Below are positions 9,197 to 33,150 of a DNA stretch of 34,904 nucleotides, piece by piece. Position 1 is the stretch's first letter; every line of letters starts with the position of its first letter. The notes under the pieces were generated by a model. That model was not told where the DNA came from, did not search any database, and saw nothing but the letters and a program-made list of their open reading frames with translations. Position numbers and translations under genes: made by a program. Origin of the DNA: Bacteroidota bacterium (GTDB lineage: Bacteria > Bacteroidota > Bacteroidia > Chitinophagales > LD1). The DNA is taken from positions 1 to 34,904 of the forward strand of contig JAOQAO010000208.1 in assembly GCA_025963485.1 (NCBI GenBank), given 5' to 3'.

Positions 9197-9756
9197 TACT
9201 TTCCTGATAGGGGATCGTAACATCTGTACAATATTTTTGTTGTAATATTTCAAAAAATAAATTCGTATAAGATAAATTCTCTGTGTAGGTTTGGGATTCG
9301 AACCTGCTAAAACTACTGCACTTCTTGTCGCAATACCCATGAAAATCCCTGCTGACTGTGCACCGGCCTATGCCTCTGTTACTTCGTTTTAGTAGCATTC
9401 TTTCTTACCCTTTGGGGATTCTCTTTGCCTCTTTAGTTTAGTTTTTTGTTTTGGACCGGGAAACTCTAAACGCATAAGTGTTTGCCTTTTTTCTGACCTT
9501 CTATTTGTCATTAGACCTTTATCGTCTTTTGTAGCAACCCTATTACCTAACCCCACCTAAAACCCACGATAGCACCCCAAGGTTATCAAATGAAAAAACA
9601 ACACCCATAAAGCCCTTTTGACGGCATATACGGGCTAAAGCAAAACTGCTTCCGATGGAAGTGGAGTTTGCAGAAATGACCATTCTTACCGAGACCATAA
9701 TTTTTTCAAAACCTAAAATTTTGACCCGACATTTTATTGCAAAATGGGGGACAATT

Positions 9757-12700
9757 ATGAAATCAAAACTTTTACTGTTACTTATTTTGGGATCTGCATA
9801 TCTTAGTACATGCGCACAGGGGCTTAATAAAGGAGACGCAGTCACTACTGAATCCGGTGGTCCTTTAGGGGGCAGAGTAGTGAAAATATTTCCCGTAGGC
9901 AATCCGTCTACGAGTAGCCCTGCCGCCGCATATGGCGATAACTGGGGTCTCGCCGATCCTCCATATTCTGCGTGGGATCTACAGACCCTGGGCCAGGTAT
10001 TCGGTCTGGCTATTAATACCAATAGTGCAAACCATGTGATCTATACCTCTACTACGCAGGTTTATGCGAGGGTGCAACCATCGAGCTACTATAGCAATGG
10101 CTACGCGAGCTTTCCCGAGCCTATGGACTCAGGTGCTACTATGATCTGGGCATTAGATCCCGTCACCGGTACTGCGAGTTCACTGGTAGTATCTACTACC
10201 GATTTCCCACTGGCTACCAGTACTGGCAATGCCATTTTCAACCGTGGTACGACGATCGGCAATATCTGTTTTAATAGTACAGATAACATGATCTATGCCA
10301 CCAATATGGAAGACGGTATGATATATCGCATAGATGGAGACCCTTCCCATGTGGGTACCTATGGCAATGTACTTGATAGGTATGATCCTTTCCTTGCATT
10401 CCCTTATTTGGCTACGCCCAATGACACTCCGGTATTCGCAAAACGCGGAGACAGGCTCTGGGGCATAGCGTATAGCCATGGACGACTCTACTACGCTCTC
10501 TGGAATGAAGACATGGGAGACCGGTCAGCTTCGCTCGTCAATGGCGTTTATTCAATCCCGATATTGCCGGGTGGCGGCTTCAATGCTTTGCCGTCTGGCA
10601 GTTTGACCAATACATTTGTAGATCCGATTCCGCATCATGAGTTTGATATGCCTCCGTTTGAGCCAGGTATTTATTCCCCGGCTTTTTCCAATCCGGTATC
10701 CGATATAGAGATATCACTGGATGGTTATACCATGTTTGTAGCTGAGCGCACCATGCAGGATTCATATAATAATGGATCAGGAGCTATATCAGATTGGGCA
10801 CATAAAGCCAGGGTGCTGCGATATGATCTGGCGGGTTCATGGTCGCCGTCATCTAACCAGTATTTCGTAGGCAATGCTTCTGATTATAATAACTCCGCAG
10901 GAGGAGTGGATCTGGGCTATTCAGATACCGGCTACCAGTATGGAGACACCTTGAATCCCACGGATACCTGCGAAAGGATATTATGGGCGACAGGGGATGC
11001 TTTGAAATATCATTATGGTTTTGGTACCGGCCTGGATGATCCCAATCATGTGCAGGAATTTGTATATGGTATAGCAGGCATGCCGATATATGGCAACGAT
11101 CTCTTCGACGTTATTCCACCATACGACCCCTACGCGGTCAACTATAGTAGCTTATATCAGGACATATTTAATACGGCCGGCAGCGGTGGTATGTCAAAGT
11201 CCAAGGTCGGCGATGTAGACGTTTATAGGGAGCCATGTGCCTGTCATGTGACCGCCACATTGACTGTGACTCCCGATACGCCATGTGTGGGACAGCCCGT
11301 GGTCCTGCACAGCAGCGGAGGCCACTGGGGCAAATACTACATCGACAACGGCGCGGATGAGAGCGGGATCAAGCCTGAGCCTATAGGAGGTTCCATAGAC
11401 ACCCTCCCGCCTGTAGATGCCACCCCTGGTGTGCATACGGTATGCTATGTAGCCTATTCAGATAATCCAGACTCCAGTGTGGGCTGGTGTTCGGATACAG
11501 TTTGTGTCACCTTTGAGATCAGGACCTGTATTTGCGATGTCCATGCGACGTTTACGGCGAGTGCGGACACTGTCTGTATAGGAGATACGCTTTACCTTTA
11601 CACCGGAGGGGGTACCTGGGGCAGGTATATATTAGATGGCAGTTCTCATGTATCGCCTTATGTGCCTATGCCTATGTCCGGCCGGATAGATTCATTGGAG
11701 ATTGGTGACGAGGATAGTGTAGTAGGGCCGCATACCTTATGCTTTGTAGCGTACTCTGCCAATCCTGATTCTGCGGGAGATACCTGGTGGTGCTCGGATA
11801 CCATATGTATTACTATTGTAGTCCGCAACTGTTGCGTGAGACCAGACGCCTTCTTCACTATCAACGGCGATTCACTGGGTAATGACACAATATGCTATGG
11901 GCAGGTAGTGGCGCTATATGCTACAGGTGGTACCTGGGGCAAGTACTATATAGATAATGGCCTGGATAGTAGCAATATTATGGATGTGCCTGTGGGCGGG
12001 CGTTTTGATACTCTTCCGCCGTTTCTGGCTACAGTAGGTACCCATACATTGTGTTGGGTAGCATTTACAGCCAATCCCGATTCTACTCCAAACTGGTGCA
12101 GCGATACGATGTGCCTCACCTTCACTGTCAAACAGTGCTGTGATAGCCTCCACGCGGGACTTGTTTTTCCCGATTCGATATGTGCAGGATCTGTATATCT
12201 GATCAAGGTAAGCGGAGGAGCATACGGTCAGCTGATACTGGACGATACTATGAGTATTACCGGGATTGTTCCTGCGGCCGACTTCCCTCCGGGTGGTATC
12301 CCTACCAGTCATATAGAAGATAGCCTCATAGGAACTACGCACAAGCTGTGCTATGTCGCGTATTCGGATACCACGCCGGGTGCCTGCACTGATACCGTTT
12401 GCAAATATGTGAAAGTCGTGCGGTGCAACTGCGATAGCAATTTCATAGCGATAGCAAATACGCCTACAGGCCCGATGAGTTATGCTTTCTCCAATGTAGG
12501 CGACCAGATACCAGACTTCGTACAATGGTCTGTAGATGGAGTTTACCAGACTCAAACCAATGGTATGGATCCGTTCAATTATACTTTCCCGACCGGAGGC
12601 TTCCATGAGGTCTGCCTGCATGCAGGGTATTTGCAGCCTACTACAGACGGTCATGCCATATGCTGCTACAAGGATAGGTGCGATACGATAGATATCGACC

Positions 12701-13521
12701 GCTGCGATATATGGAGGGCTACAGATTCTATCACCTATACATATGATTCGCTGGACTATCACACGATACATTTCACATACACCGGCCTGACTCCGACATC
12801 TATCATCTGGGACTTTGGTGGTGGTGATGTGGATTATAGTTCAAACAGCCCTACAGTGACACATACTTTCAATGATGGCTTCCAGCACGCGTGTATTTAT
12901 GTAGTGTGGTCACTGCATGATTCTGCCAACTGCTGCTGCCTCGATACGATCTGTGTGAACTTTAATATCAATCCATGCAGCGTGACTACCTTTGACATTT
13001 CTACTACTCCTGTAGTACCTGGTGAATATGTGTTCCAGGTCACACATACCGCGGGCTTCGTTACTTTCGGGCCTATACAATGGGTGGTCAACACCGTGAC
13101 ACAACCTGGTACAGGCGTGATCCTTGACTATGTCGTGCCATCAAATGGTATTTATGACATTTGCGCCGATTTTAATTACAACATTTCTACAGATGGCGGC
13201 TCGTTCCAATGCCATGCCAAATGGTGCATACAGGATACTTTGACGGCTGCCGGCGCGCCTGCTGGCAGGTTCCGCGCATATCCTAATCCTACCAGTGGTG
13301 CCGTGGTCGTAGAGATCACAAATTATGGTGACGGAGGCAAAACTGCGAAAGTCGATGTAGTGGATGTGACAGGACAAGTGGTGATGAGCAAGGCGATAAA
13401 CGATATCCCCAAAGGTATATCTCAAAACTACATGAATGTTTCTCAGCTTCCACTTGGTGTGTATTCACTCAGGATGAGTATGGATGACGCCCATGAGATC
13501 AGCAAACTGGTCAAAAAATAA
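9757..13521 (+). CDS. Large secreted protein: N-terminal propeller-like region, tandem Cys-rich repeats, PKD-like repeats, T9SS C-terminal sorting domain
   Basis: Signal peptide MKSKLLLLLILGSAYLSTCAQ at internal ATG 9757 (track start 9655); C-terminus YPNPTSGAVVVEI…LPLGVYSLRM…KLVKK. Confidence 0.88.
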   Translation: MKSKLLLLLILGSAYLSTCAQGLNKGDAVTTESGGPLGGRVVKIFPVGNPSTSSPAAAYGDNWGLADPPYSAWDLQTLGQVFGLAINTNSANHVIYTSTTQVYARVQPSSYYSNGYASFPEPMDSGATMIWALDPVTGTASSLVVSTTDFPLATSTGNAIFNRGTTIGNICFNSTDNMIYATNMEDGMIYRIDGDPSHVGTYGNVLDRYDPFLAFPYLATPNDTPVFAKRGDRLWGIAYSHGRLYYALWNEDMGDRSASLVNGVYSIPILPGGGFNALPSGSLTNTFVDPIPHHEFDMPPFEPGIYSPAFSNPVSDIEISLDGYTMFVAERTMQDSYNNGSGAISDWAHKARVLRYDLAGSWSPSSNQYFVGNASDYNNSAGGVDLGYSDTGYQYGDTLNPTDTCERILWATGDALKYHYGFGTGLDDPNHVQEFVYGIAGMPIYGNDLFDVIPPYDPYAVNYSSLYQDIFNTAGSGGMSKSKVGDVDVYREPCACHVTATLTVTPDTPCVGQPVVLHSSGGHWGKYYIDNGADESGIKPEPIGGSIDTLPPVDATPGVHTVCYVAYSDNPDSSVGWCSDTVCVTFEIRTCICDVHATFTASADTVCIGDTLYLYTGGGTWGRYILDGSSHVSPYVPMPMSGRIDSLEIGDEDSVVGPHTLCFVAYSANPDSAGDTWWCSDTICITIVVRNCCVRPDAFFTINGDSLGNDTICYGQVVALYATGGTWGKYYIDNGLDSSNIMDVPVGGRFDTLPPFLATVGTHTLCWVAFTANPDSTPNWCSDTMCLTFTVKQCCDSLHAGLVFPDSICAGSVYLIKVSGGAYGQLILDDTMSITGIVPAADFPPGGIPTSHIEDSLIGTTHKLCYVAYSDTTPGACTDTVCKYVKVVRCNCDSNFIAIANTPTGPMSYAFSNVGDQIPDFVQWSVDGVYQTQTNGMDPFNYTFPTGGFHEVCLHAGYLQPTTDGHAICCYKDRCDTIDIDRCDIWRATDSITYTYDSLDYHTIHFTYTGLTPTSIIWDFGGGDVDYSSNSPTVTHTFNDGFQHACIYVVWSLHDSANCCCLDTICVNFNINPCSVTTFDISTTPVVPGEYVFQVTHTAGFVTFGPIQWVVNTVTQPGTGVILDYVVPSNGIYDICADFNYNISTDGGSFQCHAKWCIQDTLTAAGAPAGRFRAYPNPTSGAVVVEITNYGDGGKTAKVDVVDVTGQVVMSKAINDIPKGISQNYMNVSQLPLGVYSLRMSMDDAHEISKLVKK
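11236..12423 (+). repeat. Four tandem 96-102 aa Cys-bounded protein repeats
   Basis: Units start at 11236, 11527, 11830 and 12136; shared G(G/A)xWGxYYIDNG…TxGxHTLCYVAYSxNPDSxxxWCSDTxCxTFxV. Confidence 0.9.
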
Positions 13522-14646: not shown

Positions 14647-16722
14647 ATGAAAAGAATACTACTCGGCGTTATAGCCTTGTCGTCGCTTTTTTGCGCCACA
14701 GCGCAAAGGACATGTGGTACAGTCGATGTACACAACCGCCTCTTGCAGACCGACCCTCAGTATGCAGCCCGCAGGGCAGCACTCGAGCAGTTCACTCAGC
14801 ACTATGCCGCAAGTAGTGTAGCGCAGAATCATCGCAGCGTAATAACGATACCCGTAGTAGTGCATGTGGTCTACAGCAACGCAGCCGGCAATATCAGCGA
14901 CGCGCAGGTGCAGTCACAGATAGCCAGATTGAATCTCGACTATCACAAAATGAATGCAGATACAGCGAACGCGCCTGCTGTGTGGGACAGCCTCATCGCG
15001 GATTGCAATATCCAGTTCTGCCTGGCCCAGCGCGATCCCAATGGGTTACCCAGCAATGGTATAGTCAGGACCTCTACTACCGTGACATCCTGGAGTACCA
15101 ATGATAATGTCAAGCATACTGCGCAGGGCGGCGATGATGCATGGCCTGCTGCTTCTTACCTCAATATATGGGTCTGTAATCTCGGCAGTGGCCTGCTGGG
15201 TTATTCGCAGTTTCCGGGAGGATCAGCGGCTACAGATGGTTGTGTCATACTCAATACGGCCTTTGGCGATGGCATAGGCTCTGTGCAGGCACCGTACAAT
15301 GGTGGCCGCACTGTGACGCATGAAGTAGGCCACTGGCTCAATCTCTTTCATACATGGGGCGATGACGGCGGATCGTGCATTGGGTCAGACCAGGTCGGCG
15401 ACACACCAAATTCAGCTGATGCTGTCTACGGATCCCCGACCTTCCCGCTCCTGGATAATTGTGCTACCGTAGCGCCTGGTGTCATGTTTATGAATTATAT
15501 GGACTATACAGAGGATGCGGCCATGTATATGTTTACCAAAGGACAGAATGTGCGTATTCAAGCCAATTTCGCCGGAGGCGGAGGCCGTGCATCTATCCTC
15601 AACTCTCTCGGCTGCGTATCTCCCGGTGGAGGGCCGTATGCCAATTTCACGGCTGACAAACTGAATATATGCGCAGGTGACCAGATACAGTTTACCGATG
15701 CTTCTTTTGATACACCGACTGTGTTCCACTGGGTATTTGCCGGAGGTACACCTGATACATCCAATGATGAGAACCCGCTGGTGACGTACAATACCCCCGG
15801 GCTGTATCCTGTATCGCTCACCGTGTGGAAGGATACTAACAGCAATACCAAAACACAAACGAGCTACATCAATGTCAAAGGAACTACGCCTCTGCCGCTG
15901 ATGGAGGATTTCGAGAGTGCCACATTCCCGCCAGCGGGATGGTCACTGACCAATCCTGACAATCAGACCGCCTGGGCCCATACCACCACCTATGGAGGTT
16001 TTGGCCAGTCATCATCCAGTGCCTGGCTTGACAACTATACGCAGTCTAATATCCGTGGCCAGCTAGACTACTTATACACGCCTGTCTTTGACTTTACGAT
16101 GGGGCTGACGGCTGACAGCAAGCTGACCTTTGACTATGCTTATGCTCAAAAGCGGACAACATCTGTGGATAGCCTTATCATCAAATACTCTACAGACTGC
16201 GGAGCCACATGGATAACCCTATGGGCCAATGGCGCTGCAGGTATGTCTACTACAGGCTCATTAGTGGGCAACTCTGTATTTCATCCTACTGCTACACAGT
16301 GGCACCGTGATTCATCAGTATCGATGTGGCCTCTGGCTGGCTGGCCTGGTGTGCAGTTTGAGTTTATCAATAAAAGCTATCATGGCAATGCCATCTACCT
16401 GGACAATGTGAACATCAACGTCGATACATCGCTCATACATCATGGAGGAGTAGGAGTGCATGACCTCAATGGGAATATGAAGGTCAGCGTAGTGCCCAAT
16501 CCTACGTCGGATAAGTTCACTTTGTTCCTCGATATGGATGAGGTGCATAGCGTGGAGGCTGCGCTCTATGATATGATCGGCCAGTCAGTATGGAGCCGCG
16601 ATCTGGGTACAGTGAGGAGCACCTCAGAATCGGTTTCTACCGCTGCATTGGCACCGGGCATATATGTCCTGAAGGTCAAAGCAGGGGAGAGGTCATATAC
16701 GACGCGAGTGGTCAAACAGTAA
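14647..16722 (+). CDS. M43 family (cytophagalysin/pappalysin-like) secreted zinc metalloprotease with PKD domain and T9SS sorting domain
   Basis: THEVGHWLNLFHTWGDDGGSC; ANFTADKLNICAGDQIQFTDAS PKD; VVPNPTSDKFTLFLD…LAPGIYVLKVKAGERSYTTRVVKQ. Confidence 0.94.
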   Translation: MKRILLGVIALSSLFCATAQRTCGTVDVHNRLLQTDPQYAARRAALEQFTQHYAASSVAQNHRSVITIPVVVHVVYSNAAGNISDAQVQSQIARLNLDYHKMNADTANAPAVWDSLIADCNIQFCLAQRDPNGLPSNGIVRTSTTVTSWSTNDNVKHTAQGGDDAWPAASYLNIWVCNLGSGLLGYSQFPGGSAATDGCVILNTAFGDGIGSVQAPYNGGRTVTHEVGHWLNLFHTWGDDGGSCIGSDQVGDTPNSADAVYGSPTFPLLDNCATVAPGVMFMNYMDYTEDAAMYMFTKGQNVRIQANFAGGGGRASILNSLGCVSPGGGPYANFTADKLNICAGDQIQFTDASFDTPTVFHWVFAGGTPDTSNDENPLVTYNTPGLYPVSLTVWKDTNSNTKTQTSYINVKGTTPLPLMEDFESATFPPAGWSLTNPDNQTAWAHTTTYGGFGQSSSSAWLDNYTQSNIRGQLDYLYTPVFDFTMGLTADSKLTFDYAYAQKRTTSVDSLIIKYSTDCGATWITLWANGAAGMSTTGSLVGNSVFHPTATQWHRDSSVSMWPLAGWPGVQFEFINKSYHGNAIYLDNVNINVDTSLIHHGGVGVHDLNGNMKVSVVPNPTSDKFTLFLDMDEVHSVEAALYDMIGQSVWSRDLGTVRSTSESVSTAALAPGIYVLKVKAGERSYTTRVVKQ

Positions 16723-17537: not shown

Positions 17538-18479
17538 TCATACATCAGAAATAGGAAGCACATTCCTGTTCTTCGGATTGATATCTGATGGCAGTGACCT
17601 GATGATCTCCTCCTGTATCCTCTGTAGCAGCACCCCTCTGGGGAAGGTCGCCTTGGTCACCAGGCTGATCTCCCGCACAGGTTTGGGGTTAGAGAACTCC
17701 CGCACCTTTTTCTTTTGCGAAGGTTTGAGATTGAGCACTGCCAGATGTGGTATGATGGTGATACCGTCATAGCGGTCAACCAGATTGATGAGTGTCTCTA
17801 TACTTCCTGCCTCGTAGTGTAGTGTATCAGACTCGCGGGACTGATGTTTTAGTTCGCAGAGGTTATATATCTGGCTGCGCAGGCAGTGGCCCTCCTCCAG
17901 TAGCCAGAGATGATCAGGATTTATCTGTTTAGGCAGCAGGTATTTTTTATTGGGTAGTTTCTCACTGCTGGATACATAGGCGTAGAAAGCCTCATAGAAA
18001 AGTACATGCTCAGTCAGGTTTGGCTCATTCACCGGAGTAGCCAGTAGTCCCATATCTGTCTTGCCTGCTTTGATAGCGGCCACGATCTCATCTGTGATCA
18101 TCTCCCGGACATGCAGCCGCAGCTTCGGAAATCGCTCAGAGAAATTTTTCAAACACATGGGCAGCAGGTAAGGGGCCAGTGTGGGGATGATACCTATATG
18201 GAGGTCCCCGGTGATCTCGCCTTTGAGTTCCTGAGAGTAGTCGCGCAGGTGTGCAGCCTCTGAGAGGATGGCTTTGGCGCGGCGTATTATTTCTTCACCC
18301 TCCTGTGTCGGCTCTATGGGGTGCTTGCTGCGGTCAAAGATCTTCAGGCCTAGTTCCTCTTCGAGTTTCTGGATCATCATGCTGAGCGTGGGCTGCGTCA
18401 CAAAGCTATGCTCCGCCGCCCGCGCGAAGTGCCGGTGCTCATCCACCGCGATGATATATTCGAGTTGTTGAAGATTCAT
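17538..18479 (-). CDS. oxyR: LysR family transcriptional regulator, OxyR-like
   Basis: MNLQQLEYIIAVDEHRHFARAAEHSFVTQPTLSMMIQKLEEELGLKIFDRSK; divergent from catalase; EGHCLRSQIYNLC resembles the OxyR redox region. Confidence 0.9.
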   Translation of the reverse strand: MNLQQLEYIIAVDEHRHFARAAEHSFVTQPTLSMMIQKLEEELGLKIFDRSKHPIEPTQEGEEIIRRAKAILSEAAHLRDYSQELKGEITGDLHIGIIPTLAPYLLPMCLKNFSERFPKLRLHVREMITDEIVAAIKAGKTDMGLLATPVNEPNLTEHVLFYEAFYAYVSSSEKLPNKKYLLPKQINPDHLWLLEEGHCLRSQIYNLCELKHQSRESDTLHYEAGSIETLINLVDRYDGITIIPHLAVLNLKPSQKKKVREFSNPKPVREISLVTKATFPRGVLLQRIQEEIIRSLPSDINPKNRNVLPISDV

Positions 18480-18602
18480 TTTATTGTTTATCGCTGTTAT
18501 TGTATTCCTCTGCTTTCTATTCTGTCCTCAAAATCTCTGTTACTCAGGGGGAAGTTTGTATTTGTATTCAATCCGAAATCAAAAATCCGCAATCCGAAAT
18601 CA

Positions 18603-18617
18603 ATAGATTTTGTCTAT
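18603..18617. promoter_or_regulatory. Candidate OxyR half-operator ATAG-N7-CTAT
   Basis: ATAG ATTTTGT CTAT in the oxyR/catalase intergenic region, upstream of TTG(18639-18641)-N20-AATCTTTG(18662-18669). Confidence 0.5.
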
Positions 18618-18707
18618 GCTAATATAAATAATATCAGTTTGATTTATGACATGGAGATGACAATCTTTGCGTGGTAAATGATTTGCTAAACCATAAACTC
18701 ATATACT

Positions 18708-20231
18708 ATGTCTCAAGAGAAAGAAAAAAACACAAAGCTAACCACCGCTTCCGGCAGGCCATATGCGGAGAACGAAAATTCTATGAGCACTGGTGCCCGT
18801 GGTCCGCTATTATTACAGGATTACATCCTGCATGAGAAAATGGCCCACTTCAACCGGGAGCGCATACCCGAGCGCGTGGTACATGCCAAAGGTACCGGCG
18901 CCTTCGGTACATTCACTGTCACGAATGACATTAGCAAATACACCAAGGCCAAACTGTTCAGTAAGATAGGCAAAGAGACCAAGGTGCTTTTGAGGTTCAG
19001 CACAGTAGGAGGGGAGAAAGGCAGCGCCGATACCGAGCGCGACCCGCGTGGCTTTGCGTTGAAGTTCTATACTGAGGAAGGCAACTGGGACCTCGTCGGC
19101 AATAATACACCGGTCTTCTTCGTCAAAGACCCCAAAAAATTTGGCGATTTCATTCATACACAGAAGCGTGATCCGCGTACTAACTGCAAAAGCCCTACCA
19201 TGATGTGGGACTTCTGGAGCCTCAATCCCGAGAGCCTGCACCAGGTCATGATACTCATGAGCGATCGCGGCACGCCTTATGGCTATCGGCACATGAATGG
19301 TTTTGGCAGCCACACCTTTTCGCTTGTCAATGATAAGAATGAATTCGTCTGGGTGAAGTTCCACTTCAAAACTCAGCAGGGTATCAGGAATTTCACTAAT
19401 GATGATGCGGCGGCGATGAAAGGCCATGACCCGGATTTCGCCCAGCGCGACCTGGTGGATGCTATTGACAGGAAGGACTTCCCTAAGTGGGACCTGAAGA
19501 TACAGGTGATGACTCAGGAGCAGGCTGCCGGGTTCCGCTTCAATCCTTTTGACCTGACCAAGATATGGCCGCATGCCGATTTTCCCCTGATAGATGTCGG
19601 CGTGCTGGAGCTCAACCAGGTACCTAAGAACTATTTCGCCGAGGTTGAGCAGTCTGCTTTTGCTCCCGCGCATGTGGTGGATGGTATCGGCTATTCACCT
19701 GACAAGATGCTCCAGGGACGCTTGCTTTCCTATCCTGACGCACATCGCTACCGCCTTGGAGCTAACTATGAGCAGATCCCGGTCAACCGCTGTCCATATA
19801 TGGTAGCTAACTATGAGCGTGACGGTGCGATGCGGATTGATGGCAATGGAGAAGATGCCCCAAACTATTTCCCTAATAGTTTCGACGGCATATATGCTGA
19901 CCAGTCGTATAAAGAACCCACACTACAACTGGATAGCCAAACGGCCGATTGGTATGACAGGAATGGAGCAGGAGAGAATGACCACTATACACAGCCTGGC
20001 TGGCTATTCAATAAAGCAATGAATGACTATGACCGCCATAACCTGGTATCTAATATAGTAGGTGCAATGGGCGGTATCTCAGGTGAGAGGAAAGACCTCA
20101 TCATAAACAGGCAGCTATGCCACTTCTTCCGGGCAGATGTCAAACTCGGTATGGCTGTCGCCAAAGGCCTTGGAGTAGATGTAGAATCAATAATGGCTGG
20201 TATGAAGCATGAAAATGCAGAAACAGCTTAG
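18708..20231 (+). CDS. katA: Catalase (monofunctional heme catalase)
   Basis: RIPERVVHAKGTGAFGTF; RFSTVGGEKGSADTERDPRGFALKFYTEEGNWDLVGNNTPVFFVKDP; RLLSYPDAHRYRLG. Confidence 0.97.
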   Translation: MSQEKEKNTKLTTASGRPYAENENSMSTGARGPLLLQDYILHEKMAHFNRERIPERVVHAKGTGAFGTFTVTNDISKYTKAKLFSKIGKETKVLLRFSTVGGEKGSADTERDPRGFALKFYTEEGNWDLVGNNTPVFFVKDPKKFGDFIHTQKRDPRTNCKSPTMMWDFWSLNPESLHQVMILMSDRGTPYGYRHMNGFGSHTFSLVNDKNEFVWVKFHFKTQQGIRNFTNDDAAAMKGHDPDFAQRDLVDAIDRKDFPKWDLKIQVMTQEQAAGFRFNPFDLTKIWPHADFPLIDVGVLELNQVPKNYFAEVEQSAFAPAHVVDGIGYSPDKMLQGRLLSYPDAHRYRLGANYEQIPVNRCPYMVANYERDGAMRIDGNGEDAPNYFPNSFDGIYADQSYKEPTLQLDSQTADWYDRNGAGENDHYTQPGWLFNKAMNDYDRHNLVSNIVGAMGGISGERKDLIINRQLCHFFRADVKLGMAVAKGLGVDVESIMAGMKHENAETA

Positions 20232-20501: not shown

Positions 20502-20534
20502 ACCTTGACAAAAGTGTAACCCAAACCTATCTTG
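20502..20534 (+). promoter_or_regulatory. Promoter of small secreted protein A
   Basis: accTTGacaaaagtgtaacccaaaccTATCTTG; 31/33 identical to 32784-32816. Confidence 0.7.
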
Positions 20535-20559
20535 TAATCATAACAGCAAAACAAAAGTT

Positions 20560-20775
20560 ATGAAAAGCATCCTCCTCACTATCTTCTTCTTCGCAGCCAT
20601 CGCTTCAGCTAAATGTGAAACTCCGGCTACTGAGACTACAAAGACAGATGTGAAGACTGAAAAGACTGCTACTCCTGCTAAAGAAGAAATGAAAGATGCT
20701 ACTGCTAAATCTAACTTCGTAGGTACTTCTGAACTGTATCTGAATCTGATCCGCGAAGGTGTAAAGCGCGCATAA
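20560..20775 (+). CDS. Small secreted protein A (71 aa) with conserved C-terminal motif
   Basis: Signal peptide MKSILLTIFFFAAIASA, T/K/E/A/P-rich linker, C-term NFVGTSELYLNLIREGVKRA shared with 32848-33117. Confidence 0.85.
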   Translation: MKSILLTIFFFAAIASAKCETPATETTKTDVKTEKTATPAKEEMKDATAKSNFVGTSELYLNLIREGVKRA

Positions 20776-20808
20776 TCGTCCAAGAGCTAACTCAAACCCC
20801 CTTATAAG

Positions 20809-20832
20809 CCACGACCTCGGTCGTGGTTTTTT
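20809..20832 (+). terminator. Rho-independent terminator
   Basis: CCACGAC-CTCG-GTCGTGG-TTTTTT. Confidence 0.9.
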
Positions 20833-21038: not shown

Positions 21039-21863
21039 ATGGCTCTAATAGACCTTACCGGACCGGATATTGAGTTGTTGCTAACTACGCTCTATCGGCA
21101 GTATGGATATGACTTCAGGCAGTATTCCGAAGCTCATGTCCGGCGCAGGATAATGAACCGGTTCATATTGTCGGGTTTGAATAGTATGACAGATATGCAG
21201 GCCAGGGTGCAAAATGACAATAAATTTGCCGCCCTTTTGCTGCAGGACCTGTCCATTACAGTTACTGAGATGTTTCGTGATCCGGAGTTCTACAGGTCCC
21301 TCCGGGAGAAGGTCATTCCTATATTAAAGACCTACTCTTTTATTAAGGTATGGCATGCCGGCTGCTCTACAGGAGAGGAGGCATATTCTATGGCGATCCT
21401 TCTCAAAGAAGCAGGACTATATGACCGCACTACGATCTATGCTACCGATTTCAATCAGCAGGCACTGGACCATGCCCGCGAAGGGATATTTTCCAACGAA
21501 CTGATCAAAGACTATACGATCAACTATCAGCGATCGGGAGGACCCGAGTCATTTTCCAGCTATTATACGTCGCAGTATAATATGGTCATTATCGACCAGT
21601 CTTTGAAGAAAAACATAGTCTGGGCAAATCACAATCTGGTGACAGATAGTGTTTTTGCAGAAGTGCATTTGATCCTTTGCCGCAATGTGCTGATCTATTT
21701 CAATAAGGACCTGCAGAACAGGGTACAGACACTTTTTTTAGATAGCCTGATCAATGGTGGTATGCTTTGCCTCGGTACTAAAGAGAGCTTGCGTTTTGGA
21801 GAATTTGAGGACCGGTACCTGGAGATAGACAGGAAGCAGAAAGTTTTTAAAAAGAAGTATTAA
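21039..21863 (+). CDS. cheR: CheR-type protein-glutamate O-methyltransferase
   Basis: LSITVTEMFRDPEFYRSLREKVIPIL; VWHAGCSTGEEAYSMAI; LILCRNVLIYFNKDLQ. Confidence 0.94.
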   Translation: MALIDLTGPDIELLLTTLYRQYGYDFRQYSEAHVRRRIMNRFILSGLNSMTDMQARVQNDNKFAALLLQDLSITVTEMFRDPEFYRSLREKVIPILKTYSFIKVWHAGCSTGEEAYSMAILLKEAGLYDRTTIYATDFNQQALDHAREGIFSNELIKDYTINYQRSGGPESFSSYYTSQYNMVIIDQSLKKNIVWANHNLVTDSVFAEVHLILCRNVLIYFNKDLQNRVQTLFLDSLINGGMLCLGTKESLRFGEFEDRYLEIDRKQKVFKKKY

Positions 21864-21874
21864 TATATCAATAG

Positions 21875-22459
21875 ATGAGCGACGGGGGTAAATATGACGC
21901 AATAGTGATAGGTGTATCAGCCGGTGGTTTAAAAGCGCTGAGGTTCCTGATACCCGAATTGCCTGTGGGCTTTCAGATACCTATTGTCATTGTCCAGCAT
22001 ATCAGTGCGCATTCCGATGGCTCGTGGATCCACCTCCTGAGCAAAGAAGGGAACCGGATAATAAAAGAAGCAGATGAAAAAGAGGAGATCAAAAAAGAGG
22101 TGATCTATGTCGCACCTCCCAATTATCACCTGATGATAGAAAGGGACAAGACATTTGCACTCGACATAGATGAGAAGGTGAATTATGCACGGCCCTCCAT
22201 CGATGTGCTCTTTGAGTCGGCGGCAGAGGCTTATCGCGATAGGCTTATAGGCATCATTTTGACCGGATCAGGCGCCGACGGAGCTAAGGGGCTGAAAAGG
22301 ATAAAGGATAGAGGTGGCCTGACCATAGCGCAGGATCCTGCGGAGGCAGAGTCTGCCAGTATGCCCACTGCGGCCATTGCCGCTACGCAGGTGGATCATA
22401 TCTTGTCTCTCCGGGATATCGTTGATTTATTAGTAGAAATAGAAAATACACATCAATAA
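21875..22459 (+). CDS. cheB: CheB-type methylesterase domain protein (no receiver domain)
   Basis: VSAGGLKAL, VIVQHIS, YVAPPNYHL, IILTGSGADGAKGL; Ser/His/Asp catalytic positions present. Confidence 0.94.
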   Translation: MSDGGKYDAIVIGVSAGGLKALRFLIPELPVGFQIPIVIVQHISAHSDGSWIHLLSKEGNRIIKEADEKEEIKKEVIYVAPPNYHLMIERDKTFALDIDEKVNYARPSIDVLFESAAEAYRDRLIGIILTGSGADGAKGLKRIKDRGGLTIAQDPAEAESASMPTAAIAATQVDHILSLRDIVDLLVEIENTHQ

Positions 22460-22467
22460 AATTGATT

Positions 22468-25400
22468 ATGAAATTTACACTTGATAAAAAGATACTTGCC
22501 GGATTTATTGCCTGTTGCCTGCTGCTACTCATTGTGGCAGTGATCTCCTTTCGCAATAGTGAGAAGTTTCTCGCGACCAACTATTGGGTCAATCATACCC
22601 ATCAGGTCTTATATGAAATGGAACAGGTCCTGCAATACTCCGTCGATGCCGAGACCGGAGAGAGAGGCTATATTATCACCGGAGAGCCGGTGTACCTGGA
22701 GCCGTTCAATAATGCTAAATCGAAAATGAAGGAGCACATGGCAAAGGCGCTGGAAATGACAGCAGATAATCCCACCCAGCAGAAAAACCTTAAAGAGCTT
22801 TCGGTCAAGGTAGATGATCACGTCAGTTATTTGGAAAACAGTATTGATCTGAGAAAAAAGAAAGGCTTCTCTGAGGCAGAGAAACTGCTCGCAGAAGGAG
22901 AAGGTAAAAGAAAGCTGGATGAGATACGCAACCGCGTAGCAGATGCCAAAAGCATCGAAAATACATTGCTTCTCGAACGGGAGAAAACCAGTCAGCAGGA
23001 TGCTCAGGGATTTACGATCGTTTTTATAGTTCTCCTGTTGGTGATCGCCATCGTGCTCATTACGGTATACTTCATTATCAATGCCAATCTGAAAGCACTG
23101 CGGGTAGCCGAGTTGGAAAGCGAGAATAAAAACTGGAACCTCACCGGTTCAGGAGAGTTGACCCTGAATATGCAGGGCAATAAAACGGCCGCACAATTAT
23201 CGCAGATCATCATCACCTATCTCTGCAAATACCTCAATGCGCAGATCGGAGCTATCTATCTTATAGAAGAAGATGAAGCCCATTTGAAACTGGAAGCAGG
23301 CCACGCCCTGGATAAAAGAAAATGGGAAAGCAATGTGATCCGCATAGGTGAGGGCATAGTGGGGCAGTCCGCAGCGGAAGGCAAGATCGTGATGCTGAAT
23401 GATATCCCAAAGGAATACTTTAATCTTCATTCCGGCTTTGGCGAGATAGTGCCACATCATATCATTGCTGCACCTTTTATTTTTGAGGATAAAGTGCTGG
23501 GAGTGGTCGAGATCGGCAGTATTACCGGGTTTAGCAAATTGCAAAAAGATTTCTTGCCTATAGTACTCAGCAATATTGCTATTGGTATCGCATCCGCTCA
23601 GGCCCGTGAGAAGATGAGGATATTGCTCGAGGAGACCCAACGCCAGTCTGAGGAGCTGCAGACACAGCAGGAAGAGCTCCGCCAGCTAAATGAAGAGCTC
23701 GAAGAGCAATCGCAAAACCTCAAACAGCAGCAGGAAGAGCTACAGATGACCAATGAGGAACTCGAAGAGCAGACCCAAAACCTGGAGGCAAAAAATAAAG
23801 AGGTCGAAGCTGCCAGCCTGGATATAGAGCAAAAGACAAGGCAGCTGGAGATAAGCAGCAGGTATAAATCAGAATTTCTGGCCAATATGTCTCATGAGCT
23901 GCGGACCCCGCTCAATAGTCTCCTCATCTTGTCCAAAGATCTCGCTGATAATAAAAGCAAGAATCTCACAGCGGTCCAGGTAGAGAGCGCGGAGATCATC
24001 AATAAGAGTGGAATGGATTTGCTGGGATTGATCAACGAGGTGCTGGATCTGTCCAAAATTGAAGCAGGGAAAATGACACTCGATCTGGAGCGTCTTGATC
24101 TGAAGGAATTTGTCAAAGACCTCAATCGAGATTTCAAACATCAGACGGAGAATAAAGGGCTAAAGCTCAATATGACCATAGAGCCTGGCGTACCTGATGC
24201 CATCAGGACGGATGCCAAGAGATTGGATCAGATCGTGAAAAATCTCATGTCCAATGCTATCAAATTTACCAGCAAAGGATCAATAAGTGTCATCATCCAG
24301 AAAAGTGATGAGGAGCATATAGCCATATCTGTCAAAGACACTGGTATCGGCGTAGCTCCAGACAAGCAGATGGCTATTTTTGAGGCCTTCCATCAGGGAG
24401 ATGGCAGCACATCCAGGAAATATGGTGGTACCGGATTGGGATTATCTATTTCACGGGAGCTGAGCAGATTGTTGGGAGGTCAGATCAAATTGACCAGCAA
24501 AGTAGGAGAGGGTTCTACTTTCACACTTATTGTGCCCGTAGAGATAAAGGAAGAAAATGCCATGAACCTGTCACATGTAAGGCAGGAAGGATTGGGACGC
24601 CCGGTACCGGTTTTCGAAAAGCAAAGCAATCTGTATGGACATCCTACTATAGCCGATGACAGGGACAGTATCAGCGAAGGTGATAAAATCGTTTTGGTGA
24701 TCGAGGATGACCTGAAGTTTGCCAATATACTCCTGAAGCAGGCGCACACCAAAGGATTCAAATGCCTGTCTGCTTCTACCGGAGAGGATGGCCTGGCCCT
24801 GGCGGAGCAGTATAAACCCAATGCGATCATTCTCGACATAGACCTGCCGGGTATCGATGGTCATCAGGTATTGGCAGAGTTGAAGAGCAATCCTTCTACC
24901 AGGCACATTCCCGTTCACATTATGTCTGTCGATGAGCGGAGTATGTCGCCGATCAAGGAAGGTGCGATCGAGTACCTCACGAAGCCGATCAATAAGAATG
25001 ATCTGGAAGAAGCCTTTAACAGGATCGAAAATTTCATCGAGCGCAAAATGCGTAATCTGCTCATCGTCGAGGATGATGACAATTCGAGGAAAGTGATAAA
25101 GCTGCTGATCGGCAATGGGGATGTCAAAACCTTTGAGGCGGGCAGCGGTGCAGAAGCCCTGGCCGCATATGAAGCAAATCGTATCGATTGTATTGTGCTG
25201 GATCTCGGCCTGCCGGATATGAGTGGTTTTGAGCTGATCAAACAGCTGGAAAAGGTCAAGGACGGCACTATGCCGCCGATCATTATTTATACCGGCAAAG
25301 AGCTAAGCAAAGCGGAAAACGATGAACTGCAGAAATATGCCGAGACCATTATCATCAAAGGAGTGAAGTCGGAAGAGCGGCTTTTGGATGAGACAGCCTT

Positions 25401-25854
25401 GTTTTTGCATAGGACGATCAGCAGCATGCCTGCTGCCAAGCAAAAGATAATCGCCGGGTTATATGATAGGGAAAGTACCTTTGTCAATAAAAGGATATTG
25501 CTTGTAGATGACGATATGCGCAATGTTTTTGCCTTGTCCAAAGTGCTCAAAGAACGCGGAATGGAGATAAGCAAAGCGGAGAACGGCCTTATAGCGCTCG
25601 ATATACTGAATAAACAACCTTCCTTTGACCTGGTATTGATGGATATTATGATGCCGGAGATGGATGGCTATGAGACGATGAGGAATATCAGGGCACAGAT
25701 TCAGTTCAGCAAACTACCCATTATAGCGCTCACTGCAAAGGCCATGAAGGATGACAAACAAAAATGTATCGATGCAGGAGCCAATGATTATATCACTAAA
25801 CCCGTTGATGTAGAGCGCTTATTGTCCCTGATGCGTGTATGGTTAAGTAAATAA
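22468..25854 (+). CDS. Hybrid sensor histidine kinase: CHASE3-GAF-coiled coil-HisKA-HATPase-REC-REC-REC
   Basis: VDAETGERGYIITGEPVYLEPF (CHASE3); FLANMSHELRTPLN; GTGLGLSIS; three REC blocks (VLVIEDD, LLIVEDD, ILLVDDD). ATG 22468 preferred to the track TTG 22462. Confidence 0.95.
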   Translation: MKFTLDKKILAGFIACCLLLLIVAVISFRNSEKFLATNYWVNHTHQVLYEMEQVLQYSVDAETGERGYIITGEPVYLEPFNNAKSKMKEHMAKALEMTADNPTQQKNLKELSVKVDDHVSYLENSIDLRKKKGFSEAEKLLAEGEGKRKLDEIRNRVADAKSIENTLLLEREKTSQQDAQGFTIVFIVLLLVIAIVLITVYFIINANLKALRVAELESENKNWNLTGSGELTLNMQGNKTAAQLSQIIITYLCKYLNAQIGAIYLIEEDEAHLKLEAGHALDKRKWESNVIRIGEGIVGQSAAEGKIVMLNDIPKEYFNLHSGFGEIVPHHIIAAPFIFEDKVLGVVEIGSITGFSKLQKDFLPIVLSNIAIGIASAQAREKMRILLEETQRQSEELQTQQEELRQLNEELEEQSQNLKQQQEELQMTNEELEEQTQNLEAKNKEVEAASLDIEQKTRQLEISSRYKSEFLANMSHELRTPLNSLLILSKDLADNKSKNLTAVQVESAEIINKSGMDLLGLINEVLDLSKIEAGKMTLDLERLDLKEFVKDLNRDFKHQTENKGLKLNMTIEPGVPDAIRTDAKRLDQIVKNLMSNAIKFTSKGSISVIIQKSDEEHIAISVKDTGIGVAPDKQMAIFEAFHQGDGSTSRKYGGTGLGLSISRELSRLLGGQIKLTSKVGEGSTFTLIVPVEIKEENAMNLSHVRQEGLGRPVPVFEKQSNLYGHPTIADDRDSISEGDKIVLVIEDDLKFANILLKQAHTKGFKCLSASTGEDGLALAEQYKPNAIILDIDLPGIDGHQVLAELKSNPSTRHIPVHIMSVDERSMSPIKEGAIEYLTKPINKNDLEEAFNRIENFIERKMRNLLIVEDDDNSRKVIKLLIGNGDVKTFEAGSGAEALAAYEANRIDCIVLDLGLPDMSGFELIKQLEKVKDGTMPPIIIYTGKELSKAENDELQKYAETIIIKGVKSEERLLDETALFLHRTISSMPAAKQKIIAGLYDRESTFVNKRILLVDDDMRNVFALSKVLKERGMEISKAENGLIALDILNKQPSFDLVLMDIMMPEMDGYETMRNIRAQIQFSKLPIIALTAKAMKDDKQKCIDAGANDYITKPVDVERLLSLMRVWLSK

Positions 25855-25869
25855 TGTAAATCTGTTGCT

Positions 25870-27000
25870 ATGAATAAGAAACCCAAAATATTGATCGTAG
25901 ATGACAAGCACGAAAATCTCGTGGCCCTGGAGACAGTACTGAGAGACGTGGATGTGGACCTGATCCGGGCATACAGTGGCAACGAGGCTTTGACGGCCAC
26001 TCTTCATCACGATTTTGCTCTGGCTTTGCTGGATATACATATGCCGGATATGGATGGCTATGAGCTCGCAGGTATATTGCGCGAAGAAGAAAAGACCGCA
26101 CGCCTGCCCTTTATCTTTATTTCCGCAGTGTATACAGACAACCTGAATGTTTTCAAAGGATATGAAAGGGGAGCATTTAGTTTTATTACTAAGCCCTTTC
26201 AACCCGAAATACTGATCAACAAGGTGAAGTTCTTTATAAATATATACCGGCAGGAAGCAGAGCTAAATCAACTGAATGAAGACCTGAAAAATAAAAATAT
26301 AGATCTGGAGCTGAGCAATAAGGAATTGGAAGCCTTTACTTATTCCGTGTCGCATGACCTCAGGGCACCTCTGCGGGCTATGAACGGTTTTGCCAGGATA
26401 CTGACTGAAGATCATGCAGGGCATCTCGATGCCGAGGGCAAACGACTCTTAGACAATATTGGCAAAAACTCGGAAAAAATGGCCTGCCTGATCGACAACC
26501 TGCTGGAATTTTCGCGCCTGGGCAAACAGGATATCAGGGAGATGATCGTCGATATGAATAAACTCGTAAAGGACGTACTGGAAGATCTGCATACGGCAAA
26601 CAATAGCAACAAAACTGAATTGAATATTCAGGATCTGCCGAAGACCAGGGGCGATAGTGATCTGCTAAAACAAGTATTTGTTAATCTGCTTTCCAATGCA
26701 ATAAAATATTCAAGCAAAAAAGAGAATCCTGTCATTGAGGTCGGATCTTCCACATCTGGTCAGGAGACTACTTATTGGGTGCGGGACAATGGCTCAGGCT
26801 TCGATATGAGATATAAAAGCAAGCTTTTTGGAGTTTTTCAACGACTGCATAGCGATAAGGAATTTGAAGGAACAGGCATTGGGCTTGCCATTGTTCACCG
26901 TATTATTTCCCGAAGCGGTGGCAAGGTATGGGCCGAAAGTGAGGTAGACCGGGGTGCTACTTTCTATGTTTCGCTACCATCTGTTAGCAACGTATCGTGA
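25870..27000 (+). CDS. REC-HisKA-HATPase hybrid kinase
   Basis: ILIVDDKHENL…LALLDIHMPDMDGYEL; YSVSHDLRAPLRAMNGFARIL; GTGIGLAIVHRII. Confidence 0.94.
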   Translation: MNKKPKILIVDDKHENLVALETVLRDVDVDLIRAYSGNEALTATLHHDFALALLDIHMPDMDGYELAGILREEEKTARLPFIFISAVYTDNLNVFKGYERGAFSFITKPFQPEILINKVKFFINIYRQEAELNQLNEDLKNKNIDLELSNKELEAFTYSVSHDLRAPLRAMNGFARILTEDHAGHLDAEGKRLLDNIGKNSEKMACLIDNLLEFSRLGKQDIREMIVDMNKLVKDVLEDLHTANNSNKTELNIQDLPKTRGDSDLLKQVFVNLLSNAIKYSSKKENPVIEVGSSTSGQETTYWVRDNGSGFDMRYKSKLFGVFQRLHSDKEFEGTGIGLAIVHRIISRSGGKVWAESEVDRGATFYVSLPSVSNVS

Positions 27001-27234
27001 GGATATAGTTGGCAGGATGGGGCATCATTTCTACAACATGAATATTGTATTTGCGCTATCTCCAAAGTCATTTCATCTGGCACTCAAATTGAAGTTTCAT
27101 TTTTTCTCTTTGATATACAATAAACTGTAACTCGCAGGTATTATTAATATATCATTTGTTATTTTTTCAATATAGAATTCGAGAACTTTACGAGAGTAGG
27201 AAAGCACTATAATATCATATAAAAATCAGCGCCT

Positions 27235-29406
27235 ATGAGATTCAAAAATATACTTCTTAGCCTTTGTTTTTTCTCTTCCTTTTTGCTCCAGGCGCAGACT
27301 GATTCCGGCGCTTCAGCTACGAAACTTGCTGAATTCTCTCTGGAGGAGCTGATGAATATTCCGATATACTCCGTATCAAAATCGGAAGAATCGTCATTTG
27401 ATGCTGCTCTTTCTGCTTCCGTAGTGACGCGGGAAGAGATAAAAAGAGCAGGTTGCACTACTATCATGGAGGCAATGCGGCTCGTACCGGGAGTCATAGT
27501 GCGCGAGCAGACCAATGGCAGCTATGATATACATATCAGGGGGCTGGACAATGTGCCTCCAAACCTCGGTTTGTACTTTTTCGGCAATTCCACCACACTG
27601 GTGATGATCGATGACCGGCCTGTTTATAATTACCTGCATGGAGGTACTTTTTGGGAGACCCTGCCCGTCGATCTGAATGATGTAGAAAAAATAGAAGTAG
27701 TGAGGGGGCCCTCCACGGCTATGTATGGCCCCAATGCCGAATCAGGTGTGATCAATATCATCACCCGCAGGCCTGAGAAGAAAGGATGGTATGCGGTAGC
27801 CAACGGCCAATATGGAAACTACAACACTGGTATCGCCAATGCGTCTTTTGGCTACAAGGTCAAAGATAAATTCAGTGCAGTTGTTTCGGGCAATTTTCAA
27901 AACAGGAACAGAACTCAATCTGATTATTATGATCCTGCCAGGGACCAATTTGAACCTCTTGATACCTTCATAAAGAATGACAGCGTCAGGAGCGCCCGGT
28001 ATCCCCATCCGGATATTGCCATGCGTAAGTATGGCTACAATATTTTCCTAAACTATAAGATCAATAAACATGCCTCTATCGATGTAGAGGGGGGCGGGCA
28101 ACACTCTGAGATACAGGATATTTTCGCATCCAACTTTTTGACAACTGCCCTCGCTACCAGCTACTATGGCAATCTCAAGGCGCAGGTGTATGGTGCCGAT
28201 CTGCAGGTCTCCTACCTGACCGGTACCCAGCAGCCACAGGCTGGCTTATATCAGGGCAAATGGGATTTCAATACGACAGATATAACGCTGGACTATCACA
28301 TCACACAGGTGAAGCATTTGGTCATTACGCCCGGCCTCAGCTACCGCCGCGCAGCCTATGATGACAGGAGGTATGTAAATGAAGCAACAAGGGAAGGGCT
28401 TTTCAATGGAGAGGTAGTGTCACAGACTTATGCAGCTTTTCTCCGCGCTGATGCCAGATTCTTCAAAGAAAAACTCCGCCTGATCGCTGCTGCCCGCATG
28501 GACAAATTCAACAAGCCTTCGAAGCTTTATTGGTCATGGCAGTTTGCCATGACGTATAAGGTGAGTGATAAACATATCCTGAGGATAGTTGAATCCCGGG
28601 CCAATAGGGCGCCTCTCTTTTTGGAATCTTATTACAATCTGTCCGTACCCTTCAATCTGCCCGGCCAGCCCGGCACGATTCAGTTATTGGGCGCCAACGA
28701 TATCAATCTGCTGACCACAGACATGCTCGAGATCGGCTATAGGGGCAAGCTGAGAGATAATCTGGAAATAGACCTGGAGGTATTCGGCACCAGTACAAAG
28801 AATTTTTCAAATGAAATATTTACGCGCATAGACTCCTCTGCTACCAGCAAAGACTATATCTATACTTTTACAAATATTCCACTTGTAGCCAGGCAGTTCG
28901 GGGCTACTATTTCTATTCATTATATAGTAGGTAAATTCCAGTTCAAGCCGTTCATCACCGTTCAGCGTACCACGCTTTTTAATTATTCACCTTACACCGT
29001 TTCACCTACGGCCCCTGTCTCTGTTTTCTTTGCTCCTTCTCCTGCTACGCAGAATATCAACTCCGGTATGGGTAAGCAGATGACACATATTGCCACGCCG
29101 ACAGTTTATGGAGGTGCCTATATCAACTATGCTATCACCTCTCATCTAAACGTCAATATCACTCCATATTTCATGTCCGCCAGCACACAACTCGAGGCGG
29201 CCAATCTCGTGGCGAAAAATGGAATAAATGGGGTCGAGAATATTAATCCGAAATTCATTATGGACGTGGTCGCTTCTTACACTTTCTTTAAGAAGCTGAC
29301 GCTATTTGCCAATTTCAAAAACTGCTTTAGTGATAAGACAAGAGAGTTTTTCAGGGGGGACATCCCGGGTTTCAAAGTATCGGGTGGTATTAGTTTCGAA
29401 TATTAA
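27235..29406 (+). CDS. TonB-dependent receptor
   Basis: Signal peptide; FSLEELMNIPIYSVSK; plug region VVTREEIKRAGCTTIMEAMRLVPGVIVRE…VEVVRGPSTAMYGPNAESGVINIITRRP; terminal aromatic residue. Confidence 0.95.
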   Translation: MRFKNILLSLCFFSSFLLQAQTDSGASATKLAEFSLEELMNIPIYSVSKSEESSFDAALSASVVTREEIKRAGCTTIMEAMRLVPGVIVREQTNGSYDIHIRGLDNVPPNLGLYFFGNSTTLVMIDDRPVYNYLHGGTFWETLPVDLNDVEKIEVVRGPSTAMYGPNAESGVINIITRRPEKKGWYAVANGQYGNYNTGIANASFGYKVKDKFSAVVSGNFQNRNRTQSDYYDPARDQFEPLDTFIKNDSVRSARYPHPDIAMRKYGYNIFLNYKINKHASIDVEGGGQHSEIQDIFASNFLTTALATSYYGNLKAQVYGADLQVSYLTGTQQPQAGLYQGKWDFNTTDITLDYHITQVKHLVITPGLSYRRAAYDDRRYVNEATREGLFNGEVVSQTYAAFLRADARFFKEKLRLIAAARMDKFNKPSKLYWSWQFAMTYKVSDKHILRIVESRANRAPLFLESYYNLSVPFNLPGQPGTIQLLGANDINLLTTDMLEIGYRGKLRDNLEIDLEVFGTSTKNFSNEIFTRIDSSATSKDYIYTFTNIPLVARQFGATISIHYIVGKFQFKPFITVQRTTLFNYSPYTVSPTAPVSVFFAPSPATQNINSGMGKQMTHIATPTVYGGAYINYAITSHLNVNITPYFMSASTQLEAANLVAKNGINGVENINPKFIMDVVASYTFFKKLTLFANFKNCFSDKTREFFRGDIPGFKVSGGISFEY

Positions 29407-29415
29407 GATGACTAA

Positions 29416-30000
29416 TTGAGCGAAGTGAGGGGATGGATACATAAAAGAGCGGAACGAAAGTTCCACTTCGGCAAGAAGGTTCAGATAGCTGTCTCTCTCT
29501 TTCTGCTATTATTATTGTCGTGCTCATTCGCTACTCCCGCTCAGGAGGAGGATGAAGAATATAACCTCAAGGCCGCCTTTATATACAAGTTTACCAACTA
29601 TATTGAATGGGGGGCGCCGTCATCCGACCATGAATTTGTCATTGGCATCGTGGGATCTTCTCCTATCAGTAAGCAGCTGATAGAGATCGCGAAAACAAAA
29701 ACTGTAAAAAACAAAAAGATAGTCATTCGCCAATTTAATAAGCTGGAAGATATTGGACCCTGCCAGATCCTGTTTATTCCGCAAAAAACACCGATCCGCC
29801 TGGATGATATACTGGCTAAGACAGCAGGGAAAGGCACTCTCATCATAAGTGAGAAGGCTGGATATGCTAAAAAAGGGACGGGTATTAATTTTATTGAAGT
29901 GGATAATAACCTCAAGTTTGAGGCTAATGCCAAAGGCATAAGTGCCGCCGGGCTGAAGGCTAGTTCACAATTATTAAAACTAGCAATCATAGTAGACTAA
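29416..30000 (+). CDS. YfiR family protein (DUF4154), periplasmic; start codon uncertain (TTG in track)
   Basis: EYNLKAAFIYKFTNYIEWG…FVIGIVGSSPISKQL…GKGTLIISEKAGYAKKGTGINFIEVDNNLKFEANAKGISAAGLKASSQLLKLA. Confidence 0.92.
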   Translation: MSEVRGWIHKRAERKFHFGKKVQIAVSLFLLLLLSCSFATPAQEEDEEYNLKAAFIYKFTNYIEWGAPSSDHEFVIGIVGSSPISKQLIEIAKTKTVKNKKIVIRQFNKLEDIGPCQILFIPQKTPIRLDDILAKTAGKGTLIISEKAGYAKKGTGINFIEVDNNLKFEANAKGISAAGLKASSQLLKLAIIVD

Positions 30001-30004
30001 CAAT

Positions 30005-31459: not shown

Positions 31460-31465
31460 CAAAAA

Positions 31466-31912
31466 ATGAATAGTATGATCCAGGGAGTCGAGATCCTTTT
31501 AGTAGAGGACAATGAAAATGATGCAGAACTAACTATTCGTGCCTTGAAAAAAAATAACCTGGCCAATGGCCTTCTGCATCTCTCGGATGGTGAAAAGGCG
31601 CTGAACTTTATTTTTGGCGAAGGGGAATATGCCGGGAGGCATATCGAAGAGCGACCCCGGGTAATAGTACTGGATATCAACATGCCCAGGGTAGGAGGCA
31701 TCGAGGTGTTGGAGAGATTGAAATCGGATGAGCGGACCAAACTCATACCGGTCATCGTACTCACTTCGTCCAAAGAGAGCCCCGATGTACACAGATGCTA
31801 TGAACTGGGAGTAAACAGCTATGTAGTGAAACCAGTAGAATTTGAAGATTTCTTCAAAGCGATCGCATCTCTCGGATTCTTCTGGATGATAGTGAACCAG
31901 CCACCGGCGTGA
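31466..31912 (+). CDS. Response regulator, single REC (Rcp1-like)
   Basis: ILLVEDNENDAELTIRALKKNNL…RVIVLDINMPRVGGIEVLERLKSDE…VIVLTSSKE…YVVKPVEF. Confidence 0.94.
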   Translation: MNSMIQGVEILLVEDNENDAELTIRALKKNNLANGLLHLSDGEKALNFIFGEGEYAGRHIEERPRVIVLDINMPRVGGIEVLERLKSDERTKLIPVIVLTSSKESPDVHRCYELGVNSYVVKPVEFEDFFKAIASLGFFWMIVNQPPA

Positions 31913-32783: not shown

Positions 32784-32816
32784 ACCTTGACAAAAGTGTA
32801 ACCTAAATCTATCTTG
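32784..32816 (+). promoter_or_regulatory. Promoter of small secreted protein B
   Basis: accTTGacaaaagtgtaacctaaatcTATCTTG; near-identical to 20502-20534. Confidence 0.7.
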
Positions 32817-33117: not shown

Positions 33118-33150
33118 TAAGCCATCAAGATATAGCCAACCCCTATTTAG

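Follow-up and report, generated by a model that had tools for sequence, protein, structure and literature searches.

A genus-restricted family of small, putatively exported proteins with a near-invariant promoter in uncultured Bacteroidota

Two paralogous genes and their transcription units

The stretch of DNA analysed here, below called the window, comprises 34,904 nucleotides of contig JAOQAO010000208.1 (assembly GCA_025963485.1), from a bacterium of the Bacteroidota. Two short ORFs on its forward strand have been confirmed, one encoding 71 aa (copy A; 20560-20775) and the other 89 aa (copy B; 32848-33117). Judged by their sequences they are paralogues with a common layout: a signal peptide ending in AxA, then a linker rich in T, A, P, E and K that is predicted to be disordered, and then a conserved C-terminus. 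In copy A the putative signal peptide occupies residues 1-17, the linker 18-51 and the C-terminal block, which ends NFVGTSELYLNLIREGVKRA, residues 52-71; in copy B the corresponding parts are 1-19 (with AxA followed by Q), 20-69 and 70-89, the end being NYVGTNDLNLLLLRQGVKKA. Whole-length alignment gives 51% identity, and 12 of the last 20 residues are identical, a level reached in none of 200,000 shuffles (shuffle maximum 9). The initial annotation's picture of the 71-aa protein, as a signal peptide and a low-complexity linker ahead of a C-terminus like that of the 89-aa protein, has thus held up. A third paralogue lies on another contig of the same genome (L006; G000:C180:8005-8268), and was detected first by its promoter and only afterwards by the protein profile.

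Positions 20502-20832 hold the whole transcription unit of copy A, namely a promoter-like element, leader, ORF, short 3' region and terminator, and the 89-aa gene is laid out in the same way. The promoter of copy A (20505-20534, forward strand), TTGACAAAAGTGTAACCCAAACCTATCTTG, is of the Bacteroidota -33/-7 type with a 20-bp spacer; that of copy B (32787-32816, forward strand) is TTGACAAAAGTGTAACCTAAATCTATCTTG. The intrinsic terminator of copy A (20809-20832, forward strand) consists of a hairpin at 20809-20826, CCACGACC-TC-GGTCGTGG, and then six T to 20832, and that of copy B (33151-33178, forward strand) of the hairpin GCCACGAT-ATGAAG-ATCGTGGC and a run of six T. Each copy comes with a promoter and a terminator of its own, the terminators being at the corresponding place in all. 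The stretch between stop codon and terminator (20776-20808, 33118-33150 and its equivalents at other copies) retains a motif, approximately AAGATACAnCC-CCCC, that can still be recognised between paralogues with far-diverged synonymous sites.

The promoter is near-invariant across the 13 family genes considered below. All 13 have TTGACAAAA[GA][TC]G[TA]AACC, 5-6 bases and TA[TC][CT]TTG, with the two elements 19-20 bases apart, in agreement with the published -33/-7 consensus for Bacteroidota housekeeping promoters, TTTG/TANNTTTG (PMC6847099). In this genome the promoter 17-mer, with up to two mismatches allowed, occurs at the three family genes only, and the exact 17-mer is found within the genus at family genes only. 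A wider regulon under this promoter was rejected since all exact matches belong to family genes; matches outside the genus had no family gene downstream and were discarded. Such an element could be of use for driving strong expression in related Bacteroidota.

The chromosomal order of copies A and B, on either side of a shared set of signalling genes, is preserved between this genome and two relatives (G021 and G025). The third copy shares a site in three relatives and is at a different one in this genome; with no firm position in the tree, it may be a separate duplicate. A LysR regulator, a catalase, chemotaxis-type genes and two-component genes are among the neighbours of the various copies, and no fixed neighbour gene was found to accompany all of them. 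Between A and B, the signalling run at 21039-31912 encodes CheR, CheB, two histidine kinases with receiver domains, a TonB-dependent receptor, a YfiR-like DUF4154 protein, a histidine kinase and a response regulator; in relatives, the corresponding place showed no equivalents of the genes for the receptor, the YfiR-like protein and the second kinase. Upstream of copy A, at 17538-20231, a LysR-type regulator near OxyR (NCBIfam OxyR model, E 1.7e-64, below its cut-off) is divergent to a catalase that was not seen there in three relatives, whose regulator gene is close to copy A. A link of the family to this divergent regulator was dropped: the regulator adjoins copy A in two relatives, yet here the catalase gene comes between them, as do other ORFs in a third relative, and a further genome has the regulator without the family. 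Towards the ends of the window, two short overlapping ORFs at 136-590 resemble a type II toxin-antitoxin pair, the second with a weak RelE/StbE-like match (E 1.9e-4, below cut-off), and a PKD-domain protein with a signal-like start (33331-34904) runs past the window end.

Distribution in the genus and constraint on the protein

Profile searches yielded 13 members in all, from five of seven genus genomes (among the seven are the named MAGs UBA1941, SZAS-56 and SZAS-58) with one to three copies each: three in each of four genomes that are 91-97% complete and one in a fragmentary genome (77%). The family was not found in the genus genomes G022 (73% complete) and G026 (96% complete), and since one of the two is so nearly complete it is not essential to the genus. 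Two weak matches within the genus, L012 and L019, proved to be other proteins and were discarded. Further afield, none of 23 genomes from sister genera had the family by profile search, and no member was found in some 790 genomes sampled from the order and the phylum, the order-wide sample giving weak matches only, in long reading frames, and the phylum-wide one nothing. The weak matches outside the genus, mostly long reading frames, lacking the C-terminus, or short partial matches, were set aside; with a profile of the C-terminus alone the score drops from 55.9 bits within the genus to 19.5 bits outside. Plasmid records gave no family match and literature searches no description of it. Over this sampling the family is restricted to one genus of uncultured Bacteroidota, and the earlier expectation of a Bacteroidetes-wide family has to be given up. 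That no named family would claim it was correct: for the two window proteins Pfam gave no match at E up to 10, and there was none in NCBIfam above cut-off or in Rfam.

How is constraint apportioned along so small a protein? The signal peptide was called from its features on inspection of the 13-member alignment: Lys at position 2 in all, hydrophobic residues at about positions 4-14, and AxA before the likely cleavage site in 13/13. The basic n-region, hydrophobic core and AxA associated with Sec export and signal peptidase I cleavage are thus all discernible on the alignment. The linkers had been described as differing in length and sequence, and they do, but the opening TPAxxE[TN]T and a DATA[GK][ST] block are conserved in them; with TPAxxE and DATA largely retained, the linker too is under constraint. 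At the C-terminus, with consensus VGT[NS]xxxNLxxxREG[VI]KxA, the residues V, G, T, L, R, G, K and the final A are invariant in all 13 members and N is nearly so.

Among the 89-aa type proteins (group B), pN/pS is 0.12 for the signal peptide, 0.25 for the linker and 0.08 for the last 20 residues; the corresponding values for the third-copy group (group C) are 0.40, 0.40 and 0.08. Without the copies of this genome the C-terminal value is 0.03 in either group, so that overall 0.03-0.08 for the C-terminus stands against 0.14-0.40 for the linker. These low values, together with well-diverged synonymous sites, show that selection acts on the protein, and it is strongly purifying at the C-terminus of the 89-aa type. 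The initial annotation would have been contradicted by a block limited to this genome and free of purifying selection; what was found is a block in five genomes with the pN/pS just given. In the 71-aa group (group A) C-terminal pN/pS is 0.35 with this genome included and 0.14 among three close relatives, the linker being at 0.19 both ways. The notion of a C-terminus conserved above the rest therefore stands for two of the three groups, where it is the most constrained part and so probably functional, and does not for the 71-aa group, where it is no more conserved than the linker. Given this divergence, the three copies may not share one partner.

A further peculiarity of this genome is that NYVG...RQG appears in copy B as well as in the third copy, the two having NFVG...REG in relatives. 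Gene conversion, a duplication of recent date or a shared response to an altered partner could be responsible.

Abundance, export and candidate roles

Codon usage sets the family apart. With S12, S7, EF-G, S10 and L3 of the same genome as reference, a small set of five genes, the three copies here have a CAI of 0.82 (A), 0.76 (B) and 0.67 (third), while 22 other window genes range from 0.44 to 0.63 and EF-G itself is at 0.76; none of 1000 codon shuffles keeping the amino acids reached the values observed for the copies. By the same reference the ten other members are at 0.67-0.78 against regional means of 0.53-0.57. All 13 copies, in short, use codons like those of ribosomal proteins and EF-G (0.67-0.82, compared with about 0.55 for neighbours). 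Codon adaptation is a proxy, and an indirect measure, from which we infer that the proteins are abundant.

AlphaFold models of both copies have a signal helix, a linker with pLDDT of about 35-50 and a C-terminal helix with about 69-81, this helix being at residues 58-70 in copy A (pLDDT about 80) and 76-88 in copy B (about 70-75). Overall confidence is low (mean pLDDT 53-54, pTM 0.19-0.23), and the very low values in the linker are as expected for its predicted disorder. The suggestion that the C-terminus is an amphipathic helix found no support: the hydrophobic moment is 0.30 for B (44% of shuffles are as high), 0.52 for A (9%) and 0.39 for the diverged A type (23%), so does not exceed that of shuffles, and this counts against simple membrane insertion.

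Our preferred reading, held tentatively, is of an abundant, Sec-exported small envelope protein in which a disordered tether carries a C-terminal helix that docks to a partner, the role being a structural or spacer one. Each of the approximately three paralogues per genome would form a transcript of its own, driven by a strong housekeeping-type promoter, and would be highly translated; the precursor would be exported via Sec and its signal peptide cut off after AxA; and the mature protein of 54-70 residues would remain in the periplasm or reach the surface. Most of it would be the disordered T/A/P/E/K-rich tether, with the last 15 or so residues forming a short helix whose invariant polar residues dock onto one conserved partner, and, present in large amounts, the protein would lend the envelope structure or act as a spacer in it. 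Docking is what we would read from the constrained C-terminus. Together with the export features, the ribosomal-protein-like codon use, the solitary strong promoters and the disordered tether, that short C-terminus accords with a bulk component of the envelope more readily than with a signalling peptide or a toxin. A bolder form of the proposal, to which we give only slender credence, is that of a lineage-specific, non-lipidated bulk component comparable to Braun's lipoprotein (Lpp), with several near-redundant, very abundant exported peptides whose disordered tethers differ in length and carry one helical docking motif for a common outer-membrane, peptidoglycan or secretion-system partner.

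Might the N-terminal hydrophobic stretch instead stay uncleaved, as an inner-membrane anchor, with the C-terminal helix displayed on the periplasmic side to a partner in the membrane? Bacteria commonly have small membrane-anchored proteins and the N-terminal helix of the models is 12-15 residues long, yet AxA followed by Q or K is at the expected place in 13/13, and the hydrophobic core, at about 12-15 residues, is on the short side for spanning the membrane stably, so that an anchor is unlikely.

A matured peptide had also been proposed, and in its fullest form a protease would, after export, free the C-terminal 18-20 residues as a secreted signal or pheromone passing between cells. Congenial to this are the C-terminus being under the tightest constraint of any part in groups B and C, the several paralogues with variable linkers, and the histidine kinases and CheR/CheB between copies A and B. 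It is nevertheless distinctly improbable: ribosomal-protein-level codon usage and housekeeping-type promoters suggest production in bulk rather than of a signal, the C-terminus has not diversified between species, the third copy is in other surroundings with no exporter or processing gene alongside all copies, and nothing points to such processing.

That the transcript rather than the protein matters, as a very abundant small RNA (with the 3' region containing approximately AAGATACAnCC-CCCC) bearing an incidental ORF, or as a dual-function RNA, would accord with the recognisable conservation from stop codon to terminator between paralogues and with the separate promoter and terminator at every copy. 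Substitutions within the ORF follow a plainly protein-coding pattern, its codons are those suited to efficient translation and Rfam has no match, all of which make an RNA role highly unlikely. A secreted antimicrobial or toxin peptide would be small and exported with a basic C-terminal tail, as here (charge +1 to +2), but it is very hard to sustain in the face of vertical inheritance, the conserved position of copies A and B, strong purifying selection, and the lack of a double-glycine leader, of an adjoining immunity or exporter gene and of amphipathicity above shuffles. Scarcely credible is a C-terminus that is a captured or mimicked Clp N-domain repeat (NYIGTEHILLGLIREG) binding Clp clients or adaptors: the family profile matches many ClpC N-domains (E 0.0012 for the best whole sequence) and about 10 of 16 residues agree between family consensus and ClpC repeat, but the best single stretch has E 0.29, or 0.78 with the C-terminus alone, a reversed control profile reaches 0.8, Pfam Clp_N (PF02861) matches none of the 13 members, the genome's own Clp proteins are missed by the C-terminal profile, and an exported protein would not meet Clp. 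Kinship to Clp_N was dropped as the reversed-profile control did equally well for a single stretch among PDB sequences; the likeness is best regarded, with caution, as chance-level similarity made to look repeated by several related matches.

Comparison with known systems

A conserved C-terminal block after a variable body, with basic last residues, recalls the sorting tags (LPXTG, PEP-CTERM, TIGR04183), and an export or sorting tag had been among the options of the initial annotation. As a general tag it fails, for against the proteins of this genome the C-terminal profile matches the three paralogues only (next match E 2.1). Unlike LPXTG and PEP-CTERM tags, which recur on many otherwise unrelated proteins of a genome, the block is carried by one family only and lacks a 15-20 residue membrane span before its basic end, only about six mostly hydrophobic residues in a row (LNLLLL) preceding REGVKKA. 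The T9SS type A sorting domain TIGR04183, a C-terminal profile of about 72 residues, was likewise rejected with no NCBIfam match above cut-off; as a positive control, the window proteins at 9655-13521 and 14647-16722 do match it. Nor is this a double-glycine leader bacteriocin or pheromone, a class marked by a GG or GA/GS processing site behind the leader and by a linked ABC peptidase-exporter: the N-terminus is of Sec type, the alignment has no such leader and there is no linked exporter among the neighbours.

Lipoproteins were dismissed too, the lipobox [LVI][ASTVI][GAS]C being absent: the conserved Cys of group A sits in [ST]AKC and group B has no Cys near the site. Braun's lipoprotein is an abundant small envelope protein with a lipobox, a heptad-repeat coiled coil and a cross-linked C-terminal Lys. 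In general terms the family is like it in being very small, exported and apparently very abundant, with its own promoter and terminator. It differs in lacking the lipobox and the heptad-repeat coiled coil (its linker is predicted to be disordered), in having no sequence relation, and in ending with an invariant Ala rather than the cross-linked Lys.

On the best reading, then, what has been found is a new orphan family belonging to a common class, the genus-specific small exported proteins. The global smORF catalogue GMSC contains very many genus-specific small protein families, to judge from the portion of its description available (PMC11364881), and the present family resembles them in being under 100 aa, without a Pfam domain and confined to one genus. 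Families of this sort are so common that the sequence finding alone would be ordinary, and the interest comes mainly from the apparent abundance. If the codon bias does reflect abundance, these would be among the most abundant exported proteins of the genus, from a family without known relatives or function, and a good case in which to examine what small proteins limited to one genus add to the cell envelope. Triple copies, ribosomal-protein-level codon usage and a private promoter, which that portion of the catalogue's description does not report for its genus-specific families (PMC11364881), set this one above the average of its class.
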